Source: Bacteroidota bacterium (GTDB lineage Bacteria > Bacteroidota > Bacteroidia > Chitinophagales > Saprospiraceae). Taken from it: a stretch of DNA of 64,000 bases. Of the stretch, positions 3,001-46,506 are shown piece after piece. The stretch spans positions 62,001-126,000 of the forward strand of contig JASBVF010000058.1 in the NCBI GenBank assembly GCA_030147525.1, written 5' to 3'. The stretch's first letter is position 1. Each line of letters begins with the position of its first letter. The position numbers and the translations under genes are program-made. The notes below the pieces were generated by a model, which was given only the letters and a program-made list of their open reading frames with translations, had not been told where the DNA came from and did not search any database.

Positions 3001-3884
3001 CCACCGATAAATTTCCGAACAATACCTCCTGGCGGTTTGTGGATAAAAAATTCGTATTCCCCTCCCCTGCCAATCCGTGGCTGACACCATTCCCGGAAAT
3101 CATCAACATCAACGATGTGCCGGCGGATGTTCTGGATGCAGATTTCGTGGCCATCAAAATCGGGGACGTGAACAACTCTGCCAATTTCACAGGCAGCAGT
3201 ACGGATGAACGCAGTGCTAACGAAACCCTTGTTTTTGAAACAACTGATCAACTCCTAACAGCCGGCGAAACGTACACCCTGGATTTTACCACACGCAATT
3301 TTGAAGTATCCGGGTTTCAGTTCACACTGGATTTCGATACCGACCAACTTGAGTTTGTGGAAGTTCTCCCTGCCGTGGCAGATGCCGGCAACTTCGGATT
3401 CGCACTGTTGAGAGAAGGCGCCATCACCGCAAGCTGGAATGAAGAGTACAGGAATACCCTCAGAGACGAGACAATTTTCCGACTGACTTTCCAAGCAAAA
3501 ACGGATGGCCGTTTAAGTCAAATGCTCCGGCTGGGTAGCCGGTTTACAACTGCAGAAGCTTATAGCACTGATGGATCATTGCAAAATGTGAAACTTCAGT
3601 TCAGCGGCGGTGAAAACGCAGGCGAGTTTGTGCTTTACCAGAACAAGCCCAACCCATTCAGCCGGGAGACAGTGATCGGGTTTTACTTGCCAAAACCATC
3701 GCCTGCTTCCCTGACCGTCATGGATGTTTCCGGCCGTTTGGTGAAAGAATTGAAAGGAAATTTCAACGAGGGATACCATGAATTCAGGCTAAACCGGCAG
3801 GATTTGCCCGCCAGCGGAATATTTTATTACCGTCTTGGGACACCAACCGATTCAGCCGTAAAAATGATGATGCTGACGGACTAA
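1..3884 (+). CDS. Giant secreted multi-domain protein with T9SS sorting domain (5' end outside window)
   Basis: The frame is open from base 3 with no stop, so the gene begins upstream; about 1293 residues are visible. A GTG at 138 is not a credible start because the same repeat-like sequence continues before it. The visible part is a string of cysteine-containing beta-sandwich (HYR/PKD-like) modules with recurring 'DNC' and 'DACGNQ' motifs. A dockerin-like segment follows at about residues 948-1015 (SYDLVLISQHILG, then TTFDLVEIRKLIL), then a cohesin-like stretch. The last 90 residues are a type A T9SS sorting domain (YQNKPNPF ... ASGIFYYRL). It is therefore expected to be exported across the outer membrane by type IX secretion and attached or released at the surface. 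An adhesive or matrix role is inference. A strong terminator follows at 4068. Confidence 0.85.
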   Translation, partial: TVNIYEIDGSYINQTLTVKVKEIVNSNNCWGNILIKDKLKPVIDCVSPLVVNCNENIANVPPPTVSDNCDPNPVLSLAGSQIIDNNICDDGIFRIQRTYTALDASGNQAVNCVQELQVIRPAVDFPEDIVWRCTQYNTHPNIVNPTALNPQITDTNPATTEIDVSPTLPASVLNNTGSGVLNVSGSPICSYNILPNDEIVTTCGNSFKIIRTWTVLDWCTGTFITTGVGGEDNVQVIKIEDKTAPVITRPPFQVSANIQAVPPNPCRSQGLLLPPSVTDNCNSFTVQILTPIGEAVYVGTDGSQGGFIPPPGLGVGNHNITYIATDACGNQSTLNVTVTVVDNISPTAVCDELTDVNLNSNGVATVFATTFDDGSLDNCCIHHFEVRRMDDPCNDGHDDTVFGSSVVFCCEDVTNSPVMVVFRVFDCYNNFNDCMVQVVVNDKIPPFPVSCPSSQRITCDTYVDELELELAALAGDPVAQNELLDPDFGTPTFMDNCSFTLTKNINISINQCKEGSITRTWRAVDSGGLQSQVCSQTIFVDHVSDWAVTFPADITVICGDTLPSFGQPQIFFETCEMIGISYADTVFYSVVGACYKIERTWNVINWCVLGEDIDQEVVESSERAFQIAFPNEPCDFNGDGNCDTRTFRDSWRVSPLAKPGAAQANQATNPDTDPDSDPWDGFISYVQTISVIDNVAPVFVSCEIGTICITDSLNCSATVVIPMPDVMDCNPQVIITANGDLGTGFGPFTNVAPGTYSVTFTANDGCNNQTSCTTTFEVVDCKKPTVFCMNGLIVEINPGSSTPPLSPPMVTVNASALDDGSFDNCPGDLQFSFSSNVNDTTNTYECYQMGIDSVEIWVTDAVGNQDFCKTAIIVQASNGQCPDDTLVVNVGGFIGNENNGPTANVTVNMSGQSSGSMVTSSGGSYNFVGVPIGNDVTVTPYKDDNHLQGVTSYDLVLISQHILGIQFLNSPYKRIAADANNSKSITTFDLVEIRKLILYTTDKFPNNTSWRFVDKKFVFPSPANPWLTPFPEIININDVPADVLDADFVAIKIGDVNNSANFTGSSTDERSANETLVFETTDQLLTAGETYTLDFTTRNFEVSGFQFTLDFDTDQLEFVEVLPAVADAGNFGFALLREGAITASWNEEYRNTLRDETIFRLTFQAKTDGRLSQMLRLGSRFTTAEAYSTDGSLQNVKLQFSGGENAGEFVLYQNKPNPFSRETVIGFYLPKPSPASLTVMDVSGRLVKELKGNFNEGYHEFRLNRQDLPASGIFYYRLGTPTDSAVKMMMLTD

Positions 3885-4964: not shown

Positions 4965-5316
4965 GTCAATCAGATTTTTGATTAAAAGTTTTTGATTAAA
5001 AAACAGAGCAGCGCTTTGATCGCCAAACCGAGGCCTCGGTCTGTGCTTCATGAAACTGCCGGGTAAAATTGAGTCATACACATGTTTGATTAAGACAAAA
5101 AGTAGACTGGCGAAATTGCCGGACGTTTAATCGATGTTTGCTTTTTTTAAAAAAAAAGAACAGAATCTCGCCGTCGGTGTAGTAACGCCCGTGGAGGATT
5201 TTACCCTAACGGAAAAGAGAAGTTAATTTCCGGGAGTGGGAGTAAAAATTACGCAAGACATTGAAATTCAGGAACTTAAAAAGAGTATCAGAAAAATGAT
5301 ACAGAGGCAGGATAAT
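4965..5316. other. Gene-free region between lipoprotein gene and gdhA terminator
   Basis: I see no credible coding frame or RNA here. The part next to 4964 is the 5' region of the lipoprotein gene, with two copies of a 'TTTTTGATTAAAA' motif at about 4975-5000. No clean TTTG/TAnnTTTG promoter could be placed. The remainder is A/T-rich with no recognisable structure. Confidence 0.5.
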
Positions 5317-5379: not shown

Positions 5380-6822
5380 CTATGGGAAGATACCCATGGA
5401 TTGGTAGTCCTGACCAATCAGCTGAATTGCATTCACAAATGCAGCTGTACGCAAGTCAATATTTTTCTCTTTCTGAATGTTGCGGGTAAAGTTGTAGGCA
5501 TTGATCATGGATTCCTCCAAACCGGAGCGCACCAGATCCACCTCATCCGCACCTTTGACAAATTTGCTGACGATCTCGACCGGCGCTTTTCTTCCGGTCA
5601 TTTGTTCGATCAATGCAATCATGTCTTCCCGGCCTTGTGCACGGTAGCGTTTGTCCATCCGTCCAAAGCGCATGTGCGAAAGGTTTTTCAACCACTCGAA
5701 GTAGGACACCGTCACACCTCCTGCGTTCAGGTAAACGTCGGGAATGATGAGTGTGCCTTTTTTCAAAAGAATTTCTTCAGCAGGAGAGGTAACTGGACCG
5801 TTCGCTGCCTCAGCTATAATTTTCGCTTTGATATTCTTTGCATTGTTGATGTTGATCACCTCTTCCAATGCTGCGGGTATCAGGATATCACACTCCAGTT
5901 CCAACACATGACCACGTTCCTCTTTCGGGAATTTTTTAGCATCGGCATAATTCATAATGGAGCCGGTTTCGGCCTTCACCTGAATCAATTTCTGAACATT
6001 GATACCTTTTTCGTTGTAGATGTAGCCATCAGCTTCACCTACAGCGATGATGACAGCGTCGCCTTCCTCCTGTGCAATCTGAGCAGAATACGAACCTACG
6101 TTACCAAAACCCTGGATAACTACTTTCTTTCCTGCAATGCCGGGCTCAAGTCCCAGTTTTTTCATGTCCTCGGCATGGTCGCATGCCTGGCGGAGGCCAT
6201 AAAAAACGCCCCTTCCGGTTGCTTCCGTTCTTCCACGGATACCGAATTGGTTAACCGGTTTACCGGTTACACAACCAGCTGCATCCAGTTCATTTTCACG
6301 CAGGGTGCGGTAGGTGTCGTAAATCCAGGCCATTTCACGCTGGCCGGTACCGTAATCCGGCGCCGGCACGTCGATAGACGGGCCGATGAAGTTACGGCGA
6401 ACCAGTTCGTAGGTGTAGCGGCGGGTGATTTTTTCGAGCGTCTCCTCGTCGTAATCCCACGGGTTGATTCTTACCCCACCCTTTGCACCGCCAAACGGTA
6501 CGTGCACGATGGCGCACTTATAGGACATCAGCGTGGCCAGGGCCATCACTTCATCCTGGTTGACGTGGTTGCTGTAACGAATACCGCCTTTGGTTGGCAG
6601 GCGGTGGTGACTGTGCTGCACACGGTAGGCCTCGATGACCTGCACTCTGAGTGCACCGGTTTTTTTATCACGAACTTCCACCGGAAAACGAATGGCGTAA
6701 ACTGCGTTGCACACCCGGATTTGATCAAGCAATCCTCTTTCGAGGCCGGTATGAGGTGCGGCTTTTTCAAAATAATTTTCAACGCTTTCATAAAATGTAA
6801 GCGTCTTTTTGACTTTACTCAT
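5380..6822 (-). CDS. gdhA: Glutamate dehydrogenase (Glu/Leu/Phe/Val dehydrogenase family)
   Basis: 480 residues. It reversibly interconverts glutamate with 2-oxoglutarate and ammonium in the cytoplasm. The family signature VPFGGAKGGVRI (residues 108-119) holds the catalytic Lys114, and LPTKGGIRY (75-83) holds a substrate-binding Lys. A Rossmann motif GFGNVG lies near residue 240. The length fits the hexameric 50-kDa class. Cofactor preference cannot be read safely. It is the last gene of a minus-strand run: its ATG overlaps the end of the ccmD-like gene by 8 bases, and a terminator follows at 5317-5358. I see no allosteric extension. Glutamate rather than leucine specificity is inferred from overall resemblance. 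Confidence 0.9.
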   Translation of the reverse strand: MSKVKKTLTFYESVENYFEKAAPHTGLERGLLDQIRVCNAVYAIRFPVEVRDKKTGALRVQVIEAYRVQHSHHRLPTKGGIRYSNHVNQDEVMALATLMSYKCAIVHVPFGGAKGGVRINPWDYDEETLEKITRRYTYELVRRNFIGPSIDVPAPDYGTGQREMAWIYDTYRTLRENELDAAGCVTGKPVNQFGIRGRTEATGRGVFYGLRQACDHAEDMKKLGLEPGIAGKKVVIQGFGNVGSYSAQIAQEEGDAVIIAVGEADGYIYNEKGINVQKLIQVKAETGSIMNYADAKKFPKEERGHVLELECDILIPAALEEVININNAKNIKAKIIAEAANGPVTSPAEEILLKKGTLIIPDVYLNAGGVTVSYFEWLKNLSHMRFGRMDKRYRAQGREDMIALIEQMTGRKAPVEIVSKFVKGADEVDLVRSGLEESMINAYNFTRNIQKEKNIDLRTAAFVNAIQLIGQDYQSMGIFP

Positions 6823-30606: not shown

Positions 30607-31144
30607 TTAGCTGTTCTATTGAAGTTATAACCGCTGCTACCACTGGCGGAGTTTTCATTGCATTTATAAAAAACTTCATTTCGGCGGCATAGGCCATCCT
30701 TTTGCAGGGCTGCAAAATCTGAAAAGCGCTGTCAATTACCATTTTTTAGTAAAAACCCTTTGGAATTAGGCGGGAATATTCCCGACGGGTGTGCGAAAAT
30801 TCTACAGGCGTCGGGAATATTCCCGATGGGTGTGCGAAAATTCTACGAGCGTCGGGAATATTCCCGATGGGTGTGCGAAAATTCTACGAGCGTCGGGAAT
30901 ATTCCCGATGGGTGTGCGAAAATTCTACAGGCGTCGGGAATATTCCCGACGGGTGTGCGGAAATTCTACAGGCGTCGGGAATATTCCCGACAGTTTTGAA
31001 AACACCAGACTGGTATTAAGAGAAGTTTATACAGTGAAACCAGGCCGCAGGCAGGAAAAAAAGCGGTAGTTTCCCGAAAATGACAGGATAGCTCGAAGCA
31101 ACCGTACCGGTGCTGTTGTTGCCCACTCTTTTTTTAAACGCTGA
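30607..31144. other. Gene-free convergent intergenic region around the repeat array
   Basis: The converging genes end at 30483 (plus) and 31145 (minus). Apart from the hairpin at 30561-30606 and the 41-bp array, I see no coding frame with credible start or composition and no known RNA. The segment 30994-31144 is unstructured except for a weak CAACC/GGTTG pairing near 31100. Confidence 0.6.
30771..30993. repeat. 41-bp tandem repeat array with six perfect 14-bp palindromes
   Basis: Five complete 41-bp units start at 30771, 30812, 30853, 30894 and 30935, followed by a partial sixth at 30976-30993. Each unit begins with the perfect palindrome CGGGAATATTCCCG and continues with a 27-base linker (nGGGTGTGCGAAAATTCTAC-like). 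Units differ only at a few linker positions (AC or AT after the palindrome, CAGG or CGAG near the end, one A/G). It is not CRISPR, because the 'spacers' are all alike. Because 41 is not a multiple of three, all plus frames stay open across it, which creates spurious reading frames. It lies in the 660-base space between two converging genes, so it is not an ordinary operator. Confidence 0.95.
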
Positions 31145-40553: not shown

Positions 40554-40557
40554 GTTT

Positions 40558-40594
40558 CACCTAATTTACCAATTTACTAATTCACCAATTCACA
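40558..40594. repeat. Simple-sequence spacer before trpE
   Basis: Words of the type CTAATTTAC / CAATTTACTAATTCAC repeat with a period of about 8 bases right up to the trpE ATG. Related text (ACCAATTACTAATCACC) occurs inside trpE at 41424-41460. Confidence 0.65.
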
Positions 40595-42025
40595 ATGATC
40601 ACGATAAAACCACAAATAAAAACCCTCCTCGCCGACACGGTCACCCCCGTCAGCCTCTACCTTCGTTTGCGTGACCGCTACCCCGGCGCCCTGCTGCTCG
40701 AAAGCTCCGACTACCACGGTAATGAGAACAGCATTTCGTTCATTTGCCTTTCGCCAATTGCAGACTTTCTAGTTGAAAACCAGACGATTACCGAGACGAT
40801 ACCCGGAGAGCAGCCCGCCATTTCACCCATTGAAAATGGCCGGGAGGTAGTGGATCGGCTGCATGCATTTTTCAAAAAATTCCACCTCGAAAGCGACGAA
40901 CCCGCAGCAAAGAAACTCAACGGGTTCTTCGGCTACGCCAACTACGACGCCGTTCAGTTTTTTGAAAAAATAAAACTCGAAAGCCCGGAAAATCCCGAAC
41001 GAACCACGCCCGCCCTGCATTATCAACTCCCCCGTTTCATCATCGCCATCAACCATTTTAACCAGAAAATGACCGTGCTGGAAAACCTGCTGCCCGGCCA
41101 GGAAAGCCGCCTGCCGGAACTCGAAAACCTGTTGCAGGTCGCTCCCGTACCATCGTTTCCTTTTCAAAAAATGGGCGATGAAACGACCAACATGACCGAT
41201 GCGGAGTACATGGACATGGTGACCCGTGGCAAGCACCACTGCCAGCGTGGAGACGTGTTTCAAATCGTGCTGGCCCGGCAGTTTTCACAAAAATTTCAGG
41301 GTGACGAGTTCAATGTGTACCGGGCTTTGCGAAGCGTGAACCCCTCGCCGTACCTGTTTTATTTCGACTACGGCAGCTATAAAATCTTCGGCTCCAGCCC
41401 CGAAGCGCAGGTACGCTTGAAGTCCCAATTACCAATTACTAATCACCAATCACCAAAAACCGCCTTCATCAACCCCATTGCTGGCACCTTTCCCCGTACC
41501 GGCGACGACCACGCCGACCGGGAAGGCGCCGAAGCCCTCGCCGCCGACCCCAAGGAAAACGCCGAGCACGTGATGCTGGTGGATTTGGCGAGGAACGACC
41601 TCAACCGCCTGTGCCAGAATGTGAAAGTGGAAACCTACCGGGAAGTGCAGTTTTACAGCCACGTTATCCATCTCGTTTCGGAGGTGTCGGGCGAGTTGCC
41701 GGGCGATATTTCGCCGGTGAAACTGCTGGCCGAAACCTTCCCGGCAGGCACGCTCAGTGGCGCCCCAAAGCACCGGGCCATGCAACTCATCGACGAAATT
41801 GAGCCGAACCGCCGGGGATTTTACGGCGGCTGCGTAGGCTTTTTCACCTTCGACGGCAGCGCCAACCACGCCATCCTGATTCGCAGTTTTTTAAGTAAAA
41901 ACAATACGCTGCACTATCAGGCTGGGGCAGGCATTGTCAAACATTCGGTGGAGGAGAAGGAACTGGCGGAGGTGTTTCACAAAATTGGGGCGCTGCGGCG
42001 GGCAATTGCCGAGGCAGGCCAATAA
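40595..42025 (+). CDS. trpE: Anthranilate synthase component I
   Basis: 476 residues. With TrpG it converts chorismate and glutamine to anthranilate. Key chorismate-binding segments are visible: QIVLARQFSQKF, NPSPYLFYFDYG, IFGSSPEAQVRL, PIAGTFPRTGDD, EHVMLVDLARNDLNRLC, FPAGTLSGAPKHRAMQLIDEIE and RRGFYGGCVGFF. A feedback site of the LLES type is seen near the N-terminus (ALLLESSDYHG), suggesting Trp inhibition. Between EAQVRL and the PIAGT motif lies an in-frame simple-repeat insert (PITNHQSPKT). It is the first structural gene after the attenuator; trpG follows after 39 bases. Confidence 0.95.
   Translation: MITIKPQIKTLLADTVTPVSLYLRLRDRYPGALLLESSDYHGNENSISFICLSPIADFLVENQTITETIPGEQPAISPIENGREVVDRLHAFFKKFHLESDEPAAKKLNGFFGYANYDAVQFFEKIKLESPENPERTTPALHYQLPRFIIAINHFNQKMTVLENLLPGQESRLPELENLLQVAPVPSFPFQKMGDETTNMTDAEYMDMVTRGKHHCQRGDVFQIVLARQFSQKFQGDEFNVYRALRSVNPSPYLFYFDYGSYKIFGSSPEAQVRLKSQLPITNHQSPKTAFINPIAGTFPRTGDDHADREGAEALAADPKENAEHVMLVDLARNDLNRLCQNVKVETYREVQFYSHVIHLVSEVSGELPGDISPVKLLAETFPAGTLSGAPKHRAMQLIDEIEPNRRGFYGGCVGFFTFDGSANHAILIRSFLSKNNTLHYQAGAGIVKHSVEEKELAEVFHKIGALRRAIAEAGQ
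41424..41460. repeat. In-frame simple repeat inside trpE
   Basis: ACCAATTACTAATCACCAAT-type words encode a short Pro/Thr/Asn/His/Gln loop (LPITNHQSPK) between two conserved blocks of TrpE. The words match the type of spacer in front of the gene at 40558-40594. Confidence 0.65.
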
Positions 42026-42064
42026 CTCAATCATTCTTTCATTCAATCATTCACTCATTGATCC
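42026..42064. repeat. TCATTCAA-type spacer between trpE and trpG
   Basis: The whole 39-base gap consists of repeated ATCATTC / TCATTCA words. The same text type fills the trpD-trpC gap (43698-43737). Confidence 0.7.
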
Positions 42065-42634
42065 ATGAAAATCCTCGTTCTCGACAACTACGACTCCTTC
42101 ACTTACAACCTCGTCCAGTACGTGGAGGAAATGTCCGGCATCCGGCCTGATGTGTTCCGCAATGACGAAATCACCGTCGACGAAGCCAGCCGGTACGATA
42201 AGATTTTGCTCTCGCCCGGACCCGGCCTACCGTCTGAGTCGGGAATCCTTTGCGACCTTATCCGGGAGCTGGCGCCGGTGAAAAGCATCTTTGGTGTGTG
42301 CCTCGGTTTGCAGGCCATCGGCGAGGTGTTCGGTGGCAGTTTGGAGAACTTGCCGAGAGTCTTCCACGGCGTCGCTACGCCCATGCACGTGCGCAAGGCG
42401 GACGAACTGCTTTTCCGTGAAATCCCGGAAACCTTCGCAGCGGGCCGCTACCACTCCTGGGTCGTTTCAAAAAAAGGACTGCCTGACTGCTTCGACCTCA
42501 CCTGCGAGGACGACGAGGGGCAAATCATGGGTTTGACCCACAAAAAATACGACGTGCGGGGGGTGCAGTTTCACCCGGAAAGCGTGATGACGGAGCATGG
42601 GAAGGTGATGGTGAGAAATTGGATAAAAAATTAG
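42065..42634 (+). CDS. trpG: Anthranilate synthase component II (glutamine amidotransferase)
   Basis: 189 residues. It releases ammonia from glutamine for TrpE. The class I amidotransferase triad is visible: C79 in FGVCLGLQAIGE, and H170 and E172 in VQFHPESVMTEHG. LDNYDSFTYNLVQY at the N-terminus and SPGPGLPSESG (oxyanion region) are standard. It is separate from trpE and trpD, so there is no fusion. The same subunit may also serve PabB, as in other bacteria; that is inference. Confidence 0.95.
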   Translation: MKILVLDNYDSFTYNLVQYVEEMSGIRPDVFRNDEITVDEASRYDKILLSPGPGLPSESGILCDLIRELAPVKSIFGVCLGLQAIGEVFGGSLENLPRVFHGVATPMHVRKADELLFREIPETFAAGRYHSWVVSKKGLPDCFDLTCEDDEGQIMGLTHKKYDVRGVQFHPESVMTEHGKVMVRNWIKN

Positions 42635-42707
42635 CCATTGGCTACTGGCCGTTAGCGATTTGCTGACATGGCCAATAGCTAAAAGCCAAAAGCTAAAAGC
42701 TAAAAGC
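42635..42707. repeat. Repeat-rich spacer between trpG and trpD
   Basis: The gap holds GGCTACTGGCC ... GGCCAATAGC (a loose inverted repeat) and then four AAAAGC(C/T) words up to the trpD ATG. An in-frame TTG at 42660 makes the trpD frame look longer than it is. Confidence 0.65.
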
Positions 42708-43697
42708 ATGAAAAAGATACTCAACAAACTCTTCGAGCACCAGCGCCTCACCCGTGAGGAAGCATACGAAACCCTCACGGAAATCACCCGTGGCGAGGTC
42801 AATGAGGCACAAATCGCCGCCTTCCTCACGGTCTATCTCATGCGCAGCATCAGCGTGGAGGAACTTGACGGCTTCCGGCAGGCTCTGCTCGACTTGTGCA
42901 TTCGCCTCGACATGAGCCACGCCGAAACTATCGACCTCTGCGGCACCGGCGGCGACGGGAAAAACACGTTCAACATCTCGACCCTCGCCAGCTTCGTGGT
43001 GGCCGGCGCCGGTGGCAAGGTGGTGAAACACGGCAACTACGGCGTCTCCTCTGTCTGCGGCTCCTCCAACGTGCTTGAAGCGATGGGCTACCGTTTCAAA
43101 AACGACGAAACCGCCCTTCGCCGGGAACTCGACGAAGCGGGCATCTGCTTCCTGCACGCCCCGATGTTCCACCCTGCGCTGAAAAACGTTGGCCCGGTGC
43201 GGCGGGCGCTGGGCGTCAAAACCTTTTTCAATATGCTCGGCCCGCTGGTCAATCCGGCCTTTCCCGATTGCCAGTTAACAGGGGTTTTTAACCTTGAATT
43301 ACAGCGGATTTACGGGTACTTGCTGCAATCAGCTGGCGGACGTTTCAACATCGTCCACACCCTCGGCGGCTATGATGAAATTTCGCTGACGGAAGCTGCC
43401 AAGACGGTGAGCAATCTCGGTGAAAAAACGCTGACACCCACTGATTTCGGCGGCAGCGTCACGGAAACTGACATTTCCGGCGGCAGCACCGTCGAAGCCA
43501 ACGCCAAATTGTTCACCGCCATCCTCGAAGGCCGGGGAACGGCGGCGCAAAACCGGGTCGTGGCAGCCAATTCCGCCCTCGCCCTGCAGTGCATTTCACC
43601 GGAAAAATCGCTGGAGGAGTGCATTGCCCAGGCCAACGAATCGCTCGAAAGCGGACGAGCGCTGGGAGCTTTGAAAAAATTGATTTCCCTGCAATAA
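42708..43697 (+). CDS. trpD: Anthranilate phosphoribosyltransferase
   Basis: 329 residues from the ATG at 42708 (MKKILNKLFEHQRLTREEAY). It joins anthranilate to PRPP. The PRPP site is LCGTGGDGKNTFNIST (78-92), followed by KVVKHGNYGVSSVCGSSNVLEAMG and the anthranilate-contacting FLHAPMFHPALKNVGPVRRALGVKT segment with FFNMLGPLVNP. Length is normal. It is the third structural gene of the operon. Confidence 0.95.
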   Translation: MKKILNKLFEHQRLTREEAYETLTEITRGEVNEAQIAAFLTVYLMRSISVEELDGFRQALLDLCIRLDMSHAETIDLCGTGGDGKNTFNISTLASFVVAGAGGKVVKHGNYGVSSVCGSSNVLEAMGYRFKNDETALRRELDEAGICFLHAPMFHPALKNVGPVRRALGVKTFFNMLGPLVNPAFPDCQLTGVFNLELQRIYGYLLQSAGGRFNIVHTLGGYDEISLTEAAKTVSNLGEKTLTPTDFGGSVTETDISGGSTVEANAKLFTAILEGRGTAAQNRVVAANSALALQCISPEKSLEECIAQANESLESGRALGALKKLISLQ

Positions 43698-43737
43698 AAA
43701 TTCAATCATTCTCTCATTCAATCATTCTCTCATTGAA
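43698..43737. repeat. TCATTCTCTCATTCAA-type spacer between trpD and trpC
   Basis: Two nearly identical copies of a 17-base TTCAATCATTCTCTCAT unit fill the whole gap up to the trpC ATG. Confidence 0.75.
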
Positions 43738-44550
43738 ATGAATATTTTAGAAAAAATCATCGCCCACAAACGCAACGAAGTCGCCGAGCGCCAGTCGCTC
43801 TACCCAGCCAAACTGCTCGAACGCAGCATCTTTTTTGAAACGCCGACCGTCAGCCTGACGAAGTACCTGCGCCGCCCCGACCGGCACGGCATCATCGCCG
43901 AATTCAAGCGGCGCTCGCCGTCGAAGGGCGTCATCAACGCCTACGCCAAGGTGGAGCAGACGACTATTGGCTACATGCAGGCGGGCGCTTCGGCGCTGTC
44001 TGTGCTCACCGACGAGCATTTTTTTGGTGGTAAAAACGAGGACCTGACGATGGCCCGGAAGTTCAATTTCTGCCCCATCCTGCGCAAAGATTTCACCATC
44101 AGCGAGTACCAGATTATCGAGGCCCGCAGCATCGGCGCCGACGCCATCCTGCTCATCGCCGCCGTGCTGACGCCGCAAGAGGTGCGCCAACTGAGCACTT
44201 TTGCCCGCTCGCTCGGCCTCGAAGTGCTGCTCGAAATCCATGACGGCAGCGAACTCGGCCACCTTTGCGACACGGTGAATGCCGTAGGCGTGAACAATCG
44301 CAACCTGGCCGATTTTTCGGTGGATGTGCGGCGCTCTATCGAACTTGCCCCGCATATTCCGGATGATTTTGTGAAAATAAGTGAGTCCGGCCTGAGCGAC
44401 CCGGCGTCGATTGTCGAGTTGCGGAAGGCAGGTTTTCAGGGCTTTTTGATTGGGGAGAATTTTATGAAACACAGCAGGCCGGAGGAGGCGTGTAAGGAGT
44501 TTACCACAACACTTGTTTCACTCGAAAAACAACGAACTCCGGCCATTTGA
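43738..44550 (+). CDS. trpC: Indole-3-glycerol phosphate synthase
   Basis: 270 residues. It decarboxylates and closes the ring of carboxyphenylaminodeoxyribulose phosphate. The TIM-barrel motifs are IIAEFKRRSPSKGVI (E55, K57, S60), ALSVLTDEHFFGG, CPILRKDFTISEYQI (catalytic Lys), DAILLIAAVL, GLEVLLEIHDGSEL, VGVNNRNLADF and KISESGLSDP. It is not fused to TrpF, which follows after 29 bases. Confidence 0.96.
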   Translation: MNILEKIIAHKRNEVAERQSLYPAKLLERSIFFETPTVSLTKYLRRPDRHGIIAEFKRRSPSKGVINAYAKVEQTTIGYMQAGASALSVLTDEHFFGGKNEDLTMARKFNFCPILRKDFTISEYQIIEARSIGADAILLIAAVLTPQEVRQLSTFARSLGLEVLLEIHDGSELGHLCDTVNAVGVNNRNLADFSVDVRRSIELAPHIPDDFVKISESGLSDPASIVELRKAGFQGFLIGENFMKHSRPEEACKEFTTTLVSLEKQRTPAI

Positions 44551-44579
44551 AACAACCGTTAGCAACGCAAAAAAGAAAA

Positions 44580-45275
44580 ATGAAACTCAAAATCTGCGGT
44601 ATAAAACACCCCGACAACGCCCGTCAGCTACTAACGCTGGCGCCCGACTACCTGGGCTTCATTTTTTATAAAAAAAGCCCCCGCTACGTGGGCGAACCGA
44701 CGGATTTGGATTGGGTGAAAAACCTGCCCGGACCCACCCAGAAAGTGGGTGTGTTCGTGAACGAAGAGGTTGAAACGATGAAAAAAACGGCGGAAACACT
44801 GGGCTTGCAAGTCGTCCAACTGCACGGCGAGGAACCACCGGAGGTTTGCAGTTTTTTGAAAAAAGCGGGTCTGGAAGTCTGGAAAGTCTTCGGCGTGGAC
44901 GAGGATTTTGATTTTGAAAAAACGAAACCCTACATCGGAGTGGCAGATAAGTTTTTATTTGATACCAAAGGCAAAAACCGGGGCGGCAACGGCGTGGCAT
45001 TCGACTGGTCGCTGCTGGAAAAATACGAGGGGGAGACGCCGTTTGTGCTGAGCGGGGGCATCGGGCCTTTGCCCCTGACCCCTAAAGGGGAACCCACAGA
45101 CGCACAATTATCGGAACTCCAAAATTTTCGAAGTTCAGATGCTTGGAAATCTGTGGGTTCCCCTTTAGGGGTCAGGGGCCCAGCCGTCCTCGACATCAAC
45201 TCCCGCTTCGAAACCGCACCCGGACTAAAAGATTTTAACCTGGTTAAAAAATTTAAAGATGAGTTATTTAGCTGA
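44580..45275 (+). CDS. trpF: Phosphoribosylanthranilate isomerase with in-frame palindromic insertion
   Basis: 231 residues from the ATG at 44580 (an in-frame TTG is at 44547). The catalytic Cys is C6 in [12 protein letters not shown] and the acid lies in [27 protein letters not shown] and FVLSGGIGP are typical, and the C-terminus [15 protein letters not shown] is intact. Between SGGIGP and LDINSRFE there are 36-40 residues where other TrpF proteins have about 15-20. This stretch (about residues 164-200) is encoded by a 109-bp palindromic element at 45071-45179 ([10 protein letters not shown] ... [10 protein letters not shown]). The insert falls in the loop before the last barrel strand, close to the phosphate site, so activity with it is plausible but unproven. 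The 3' end overlaps trpB by 17 bases. Confidence 0.93.
45071..45179. repeat. 109-bp palindromic element inserted in trpF
   Basis: The outer arms 45071-45100 and 45150-45179 are perfect 30-base inverted copies (GCCCCTGACCCCTAAAGGGG at the outer end). The centre is also partly symmetric around AAAATTTT (45121-45128). Because of the symmetry both strands encode similar peptides ([10 protein letters not shown] ... GSPLGVRG). It carries no gene and is fully read through in frame. Similar CCCCTTTAGGGG-type palindromes are, as far as I know, dispersed in Bacteroidota genomes. Confidence 0.95.
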
Positions 45276-46506
45276 AAAACAGGAAGTTAAACCTGTTAGC
45301 GCTTCAAGCGCTAACAGGTTTGGGGCTTTGCAAAACCCCGACCCCGATGGTTTCTACGGCCAATTCGGCGGCGCCTTCATTCCCGAAATGCTGCACCCTA
45401 ACGTAGAGGAGCTGCGCAATTGCTACCTCCAAATTCTCGAATCGGAGGACTTCCAAACCGAGTTTCGGCACCTGCTGAAGGACTACGCCGGGAGGGCCAC
45501 GCCGCTGTACTACGCCAAGCGGCTGTCGGCGCATTACGGCACTAAAATCTACCTGAAGCGGGAAGACCTCTGCCACACCGGGGCGCACAAGGTGAACAAC
45601 ACCATCGGCCAAATCCTGCTGGCGCAACGGCTGGGCAAGCGGCGCATCATCGCCGAGACGGGTGCCGGGCAGCATGGCGTCGCCACGGCCACGGTCTGCG
45701 CACTGATGGGGCTGGAATGCGTGGTGTACATGGGTGCTCTCGACATCGAGCGGCAGGCGCCGAACGTAGCCCGAATGCGTATGCTTGGCGCTACGGTCGT
45801 GCCGGCAAAGAGCGGCAACCAGACCCTGAAAGACGCCACCAACGAAGCCATCCGGGACTGGATTTGCAACCCCACGGACACACATTACATCATCGGCTCG
45901 GTCGTCGGACCGCACCCATACCCGGATTTGGTGGCCAGGCTGCAATCGGTCATCAGCGAGGAAATACGGGCGCAAATGCTTGAAAAGGAAGGCATTGCAA
46001 ACCCGACGGCCATCATCGCCTGCGTGGGTGGCGGCAGCAATGCGGCGGGGGCATTTTACCACTACATCGAAGAAACGGACGTGCGGCTCATCGGCGCAGA
46101 GGCGGCAGGGCATGGCGTGGACACGGGCGAAACGGCGGCGACTATCGCCCTCGGTAAGCCCGGCATCCTGCACGGCAGCCTGAGCATGCTCATCCAGGAC
46201 GGCGACGGACAGGTCATCGAGCCGTATTCGATTTCGGCGGGGCTGGACTATCCGGGCGTCGGGCCGTTGCATGCGTCGCTGGGCGGGTCCGGTCGTGCGA
46301 CTTACCTGCCGGTGACGGACCAAGAGGCGCTGGCGGCAGCGTTCCAACTGGCACGGTTGGAGGGCATCATTCCGGCACTGGAGACGGCGCATGCGCTGGC
46401 GGTTTTGGAGAAGGAAAAATTTGAGAAAAATGACGTGGTGGTGATTTGCCTTTCGGGGCGGGGGGATAAGGATTTGGGGACATATACCACCAATTTGACT
46501 CCATAA
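45259..46506 (+). CDS. trpB: Tryptophan synthase beta chain
   Basis: 415 residues. It condenses indole with serine using PLP. The PLP lysine is K111 in [19 protein letters not shown]. Also seen are [21 protein letters not shown], the phosphate-binding GGGSNAAG, and [21 protein letters not shown] of the COMM-domain region. The first conserved block is [15 protein letters not shown] at residue 31. The preceding stretch (about 11-27) is coded by two palindromes (45289-45339) and is longer than in typical TrpB1. The ATG overlaps the trpF end, indicating translational coupling. A terminator-like hairpin begins at the stop codon. Confidence 0.95.
45289..45339. repeat. Two adjacent palindromes in the 5' coding part of trpB
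   Basis: 45289-45304 and 45306-45321 form a perfect 16-bp inverted repeat (AAACCTGTTAGCGCTT) with a one-base centre. Directly after it, 45322-45339 forms a second hairpin (GGGGCTTTG/CAAAACCCC, one mismatch). Both are translated as part of TrpB's N-terminus. They resemble dispersed palindromic repeats rather than coding sequence. Confidence 0.93.

Follow-up and report, generated by a model that had tools for sequence, protein, structure and literature searches.

The window, a stretch of 64,000 nucleotides, carries trpF on its + strand (44580..45275), encoding a phosphoribosylanthranilate isomerase of 231 aa that matches Pfam PRAI. It is the sole trpF found in G000, the 7.08-Mb genome (98% complete) to which the window belongs. 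Inverted-repeat search delimited a palindromic element of 109 bp within this gene (45071..45179, no strand assigned). Its left arm (30 nt; 45071..45100, +) contains the family core CCCCTGACCCCTAAAGGGG at 45072-45090 and reads PLTPKGEP in TrpF; the 49-nt centre (45101..45149, +) encodes a helix predicted between beta-7 and beta-8; and the right arm (30 nt; 45150..45179, -) reads GSPLGVRG. On recheck, the element kept its position in frame between the SGGIGP and LDINSRFE blocks. The sequence-only reading had called it a perfect 109-bp palindrome, which is true of the 30-nt arms, exact inverse copies of each other, but not of the 49-nt centre, and overall 90/109 positions equal those of the reverse complement. 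A repeat finder returned arms of 54 nt with an 83% match. By base composition alone, a 30-nt perfect stem with a loop of <=100 was expected 5e-12 times by chance in the window, and the 19-nt arm core (<=3 mismatches) occurred twice in the window versus 0.00 times expected from window shuffles. The opposite strand is also open, and translation of both strands confirmed that they encode similar peptides. An assembly artefact was rejected, as G007, a separate genome, has the same element in trpF.

Other repeats were observed around trpF. An unrelated 33-bp palindrome with two full copies in the genome occupies the N-terminal codons of trpB (45289..45321, no strand assigned), and the trpF/trpB junctions of G007, G004, G012 and G011 hold palindromes of the same size class and other sequence. 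Within trpE, a period-7 tandem repeat, (CCAATCA)n, lies in frame (41425..41456, +; reading SQLPITNHQSPKT); it is the same kind of filler as that seen in the relatives' slots described below. Period-7 and period-8 tandem repeats also cluster in the trp operon (40556-43734), at the junctions before trpE, trpG, trpD and trpC, where trpE, trpG and trpC were named by eye. Elsewhere in the window, a 41-bp unit containing the palindrome CGGGAATATTCCCG is repeated 5.4 times (30771-30991). Three trpF genes of relatives carry palindromes elsewhere: G010 has a 35-bp palindrome at a different site (L071:1798-1832; peptide KSGGDLKSPPDL), G009 has a decayed palindrome of other sequence, by eye at the same site as that of G010 (L072 about 1787-1819), and the trpF of an uncultured Saprospiraceae record has, within a different loop, an in-frame 77-bp imperfect palindrome of other sequence (TGTCCCCCTTTTGAGGGG...CCCCTCCAAAGGGGGACA; L130:3124-3200).

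The Pfam match on the window's TrpF ended at residue 163, and the NCBIfam equivalogs matched the protein under their cut-offs, possibly owing to the insert. The catalytic Cys and Asp, which we take to be C6 and D128, were both invariant in the alignment. Between G000 and G007, the native part of trpF gave a dN of 0.16 and a dS of 1.43 (dN/dS about 0.11), which shows purifying selection on the gene. At fourfold sites, 28/55 positions were identical in the native part and 13/16 in the insert (Fisher 0.04); either the insert has a more recent origin or something besides protein coding maintains it. The distance from GGIG to D(I/V)NS was about 17-23 residues in most relatives and about 41 in G000 and G007; since 36 of these residues are encoded by the element, the alpha-7 segment, roughly a dozen residues of native sequence, is absent. 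The AlphaFold model of TrpF with its insert retained the barrel (pLDDT 87, pTM 0.86), with the insert blocks at pLDDT 56-73, and in a structure search its top PDB matches were TrpF structures, the best being 1dl3. Helix 7 covers residues 163-174 at high confidence in the model of G004 TrpF. In the same interval of the window's TrpF, helices at 174-185 and, more briefly, at 187-190 were modelled from the element centre at low confidence. The peptide TDxQxSELQ also accompanies the element in a different G004 gene (L208), showing that its source is the element rather than the old helix. The simple loop insertion first proposed did not survive this comparison: the element occupies the position of the alpha-7 segment, and the helix there is predicted, with low confidence, from the element centre. 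TrpF with its flexible 36-residue insert is most likely an active isomerase, judging from the single trpF found and the dN/dS of about 0.11.

The arm was dispersed through the genome, in agreement with the sequence-only reading. With <=2 mismatches, 53 matches to the 19-nt core were found in G000 (26 forward, 27 reverse) versus 0 for the reversed control, and these grouped into 29 places. Two-armed elements numbered 22, of which 16 were 77-80 bp end to end; the remaining copies were longer, clustered or single-armed. With <=1 mismatch, the arm was present in 9/13 genus-mates and, in few copies each, in three genomes from other genera of the family. A set of 62 two-armed elements was assembled from G000 and seven genus-mates, comprising only some of the copies of those genomes; lengths ranged from 68 to 169 bp, and the arms were nearly constant and the centres variable. 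By eye, the centres are mosaics of half-modules, those of G000 being mostly of its own type and the trpF copy belonging to a 105-110-bp type common in G007 and G011. A strict search of 395 genomes of the phylum gave four positives including G000, a lower bound only, as its pattern (centre of 18-48 bases, zero mismatch) misses the 107-bp type, the trpF copy included; the other three positives had the outer arm core with unrelated centres.

An ORF of >=100 aa spanned 16/29 places in G000, and nine were kept as inside genes by judgement; the seven set aside (L037, L040, L041, L045, L046, L052 and L062) were antisense, spurious or gene-start run-ins by appearance. The nine comprise trpF, a DnaE-like polymerase, a hybrid histidine kinase (the element separating its ATPase domain from its receiver domain), an aminotransferase with half an element, a putative polyketide/peptide synthase assigned from its sequence, two proteins that match mannosyltransferases weakly, and two unnamed proteins. 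L039 and L048 were counted on the basis of their ORFs, with at most one flank giving a family match. Across the 62 elements, 23 lay in an ORF of >=100 aa with 90 nt on each side; 21 were kept after two 78-bp elements, L052 (179-aa ORF) and L062 (175-aa ORF), were dropped. These 21 copies read PLTPKGEP...(SPLGVRG or FPFRGQG) with small variations, the left arm giving PLTPKGEP in its only stop-free frame and the right arm one of the other two peptides. Their lengths modulo 3 were of type 2 in 18 cases, type 0 in three and type 1 in none (18, 5 and 0 with L052 and L062), versus 6, 16 and 19 for the same classes in the other 41 elements (Fisher 8e-5), a contrast that is partly circular because a type-1 length closes the ORF and moves the copy to the other group.

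The RNA of the 109-bp element folded into a very stable hairpin (-76.8 kcal/mol, z -11.6), a property that would suit removal ahead of protein synthesis, either at the RNA level or by translational bypass. We consider such removal very improbable, because the in-ORF copies keep one open frame and 0/21 lengths (or 0/23) put the right arm in its stop frame, bearing in mind that this count is partly circular. The Rfam search over 44400-45600 also speaks against it, returning six matches, all far under their gathering scores; a curated Rfam RNA was ruled out on the same result. We infer that the element segment is translated as part of TrpF.

Orthologous genes were compared at four sites, chosen because one genome carries the element there and thus not a random sample of loops. 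At the TrpF slot, readable in eight genus genomes (G011 ended at a contig end and five genomes gave no usable trpF), this element was found in G000 and G007, a different 33-bp palindrome in G004 and a period-7 array in G012. The remaining four had short native segments, making 4/7 of the other readable genes and showing that the insert is not a conserved domain of the enzyme. At the TrpD loop slot (eight genus genomes), the element was present in G007 alone, six genes including the window's trpD were short, and G012 had a GC-rich insert with the short palindrome CCCCCCTTGAGGGGGG by eye. The DnaE-like slot was compared in nine sequences from eight genomes, the other six genomes being omitted as matched only via fragments or a distant paralogue. 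Here the element occurred in G000, three sequences were short, one copy in G007 had a degenerate single arm by eye, and G001, G002, G005 and G011 had period-7 arrays (0 to 2/300 shuffles as high). In an unnamed 1222-aa protein, the slot was readable in 14/14 genomes: this element was found in G000, G001, G008 and G011, period-7 arrays in G004, G006, G007, G009 and G012 (0/300 shuffles each); G010 had a stem of 18 nt and G013 one of 11 nt, the latter barely above shuffles; G002 showed nothing clear, and G003 and G005 nothing.

Orthologous sites thus hold different fillers across species, indicating that the slot site is more stable than its contents. Within genes, the element would persist only where nearly any open sequence can be tolerated, in the stop-free frame of the left arm. 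Such slots would be rewritten in evolution, and this would explain why one site contains other palindromes or period-7 repeats in related species. We put forward a broader proposal tentatively and with less than even confidence: fixed protein slots (TrpF helix 7, the TrpD loop, the DnaE-like loop, the loop of the 1222-aa protein and probably others) may be older than their contents and may be repeatedly overwritten by the species' own repeat DNA, through a process that fills genes and intergenic sites alike, by which the TrpF barrel would have exchanged a helix for one from a selfish repeat.

The descent of individual copies was examined through a tree and centre similarity. In the tree of the unnamed protein, G000 lay outside the clade of G012, G004 and G007 (support 100/99), so that a trpF copy common to G000 and G007 implies two insertions, or else its loss or replacement in G012 and G004. 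By its centre, the G000 trpF copy was about equally close to a non-trpF copy of G011 (84%) and to the trpF copy of G007 (78%). The same-site copy was the best centre match for trpF, for the hybrid kinase and, between G008 and G001, for the unnamed protein; at the unnamed-protein and polyketide synthase slots of G000, 14 to 16 of 21 own-genome copies outscored the same-site copy, on a score influenced by length differences. Within-genome homogenisation of centres was considered and set aside on this mixed result. Both inheritance and replacement of copies seem to occur.

A target duplication was looked for and went undetected in the flanks of the 62 two-armed elements (1.44 vs 1.32 in shuffled flanks; 49/200 shuffles as high). 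The lack of a signal above shuffled flanks argues against a MITE, in which terminal inverted repeats of a classical insertion sequence, whose parent would have the ends CCCCTGACCCC, are mobilised in trans. A MITE would fit the inverted repeats at the ends and the dispersal of copies 68-169 bp long; even so, no full-length parent insertion sequence was seen in three stretches inspected by ORF ends only, and we regard this origin as distinctly improbable. A longer autonomous element was also tried as a candidate and found no support: the facing arms of G007 C7, 3.9 kb apart, lie in ORFs of 215 aa and 1814 aa, as judged from the ORF ends.

REPINs, described as pairing a short conserved unit with its inverse copy across a variable spacer (PMC3116915), offer another comparison, in which two inverse REP units would be moved by a RAYT (REP-associated tyrosine transposase). 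The element shares this build: short conserved arms in inverted doublets, a variable spacer, single arms as possible remnants and a location mostly outside ORFs; in addition, Y1_Tnp proteins were present in 12/14 genus genomes. However, the arm lay within about 1.5 kb of only 1/30 fetched Y1 loci (L242), and 16/20 wider stretches around Y1 genes were without it, the other four (L245-L248) having been picked for known elements. Mobilisation by RAYT was rejected as a general rule on these counts. Neither a GTAG nor a CGTC tag was seen in the arm core by eye, and unlike REPINs, about a third of the G000 places are in ORFs by judgement. A REPIN is, on balance, an unlikely identity with only a small share of our confidence. 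As a separate observation, G007 C92 (L246) contains two Y1-transposase-like ORFs of 201 aa (3212-3814 and 5449-6051), 2.2 kb apart and identical in the ends compared, with a single arm between them at 5043, about 0.4 kb from such an ORF.

The flanks of the elements were palindromic beyond the arms, with letters specific to each copy (mean 2.10 vs 0.78 when re-paired; maximum of 1000 re-pairings 1.31), as if elements enter existing palindromes or grow outward. In one case (L050:3074-3110), the loop of a separate hairpin (GCGAGTAC...GTACTCGC) consists of a single arm, which looks like entry into a palindrome already there. Flank palindromy favours a non-mobile origin, in which slippage and template switching at sites free of constraint generate palindromes and short-period repeats locally, and so does the presence of period-7 repeats and unrelated palindromes in the slots. 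Template switching has already been proposed for the coding palindromes of nematomorph mitochondria, where long perfect inverted repeats in functional genes are described as gained and lost between species (PMC6649704), and it could likewise explain the perfect arms here. The two cases differ in that both arms of the nematomorph palindromes encode conserved native residues, whereas the palindrome here is a dispersed sequence. Against this, one 19-nt arm recurs at about 29 places in G000 and in 9/13 genus-mates, which requires copying between loci, and we consider an origin wholly in place unlikely, though it is an alternative of some weight.

Movement of the element would follow from its dispersal. 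No mobilising enzyme was found for it. Copying may depend on the arms and leave the target unduplicated, possibly with a single-stranded hairpin incorporated through template switching. We consider it probable that the trpF insert is one copy of a dispersed, selfish-looking palindromic family of a Bacteroidota genus, tolerated in genes and copied without target duplication.

In bacteria, coding palindromes are known chiefly from Rickettsia and Wolbachia. The Rickettsia palindromic elements (RPE) are described as about 150 bp long and in frame in metabolic genes with a conserved peptide (PMC10969869), and a related report in Wolbachia is cited in PMC3733652. The likeness to RPE suggested by the sequence-only reading was upheld by the described features, both being genome-dispersed palindromic repeats with in-frame copies in unrelated protein genes, core enzymes included, and with one conserved peptide. 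Unlike RPE, the element is hosted by a Bacteroidota genus with genomes of 4.5-8.4 Mb and not by Rickettsia or other Rickettsiales; its centre differs between copies and species; a native helix of TrpF is replaced; and in relatives, repeats of unrelated sequence fill the same protein slots. The repeat identity of RPE is said to fade over time (PMC6649704), whereas the arms of the G000 trpF copy are still perfect. By described features, RPE appear to be the closest kind, to which the element here would add a Bacteroidota host and slot turnover. By the tests made, we would file it neither as an RPE nor as a REPIN; it seems to work like the former and to be built like the latter.

Two further kinds of repeat were compared. 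CGTC-tagged REPs are described from several phyla including Bacteroidetes, and from Rickettsia, apparently without a dedicated transposase and with some copies in genes (PMC3733652); no CGTC tag was seen by eye in the arm here, and the usual unit is two inverted arms. TAACTGA heptamer repeats are described from Beggiatoaceae, cyanobacteria and five Bacteroidetes, with a patchy distribution and often just before start codons (PMC4679880). The arrays here, by contrast, consist of other heptamers and also lie in frame inside protein slots. No earlier report of the element was recognised in the literature searched, most subscription papers being outside that search, and the 12-mer CCCCTTTAGGGG appeared in no paper of the full-text literature searched; we regard the element as provisionally new.

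The presence of the element in TrpF, TrpD and a DnaE-like polymerase of Bacteroidota with genomes of 4.5-8.4 Mb would widen the range of coding palindromes. The slots amount to a natural experiment, in which the same protein segment in related species holds unrelated fillers, and they allow direct tests of the freedom of enzymes to vary and of the origin of new protein segments from repeat DNA.
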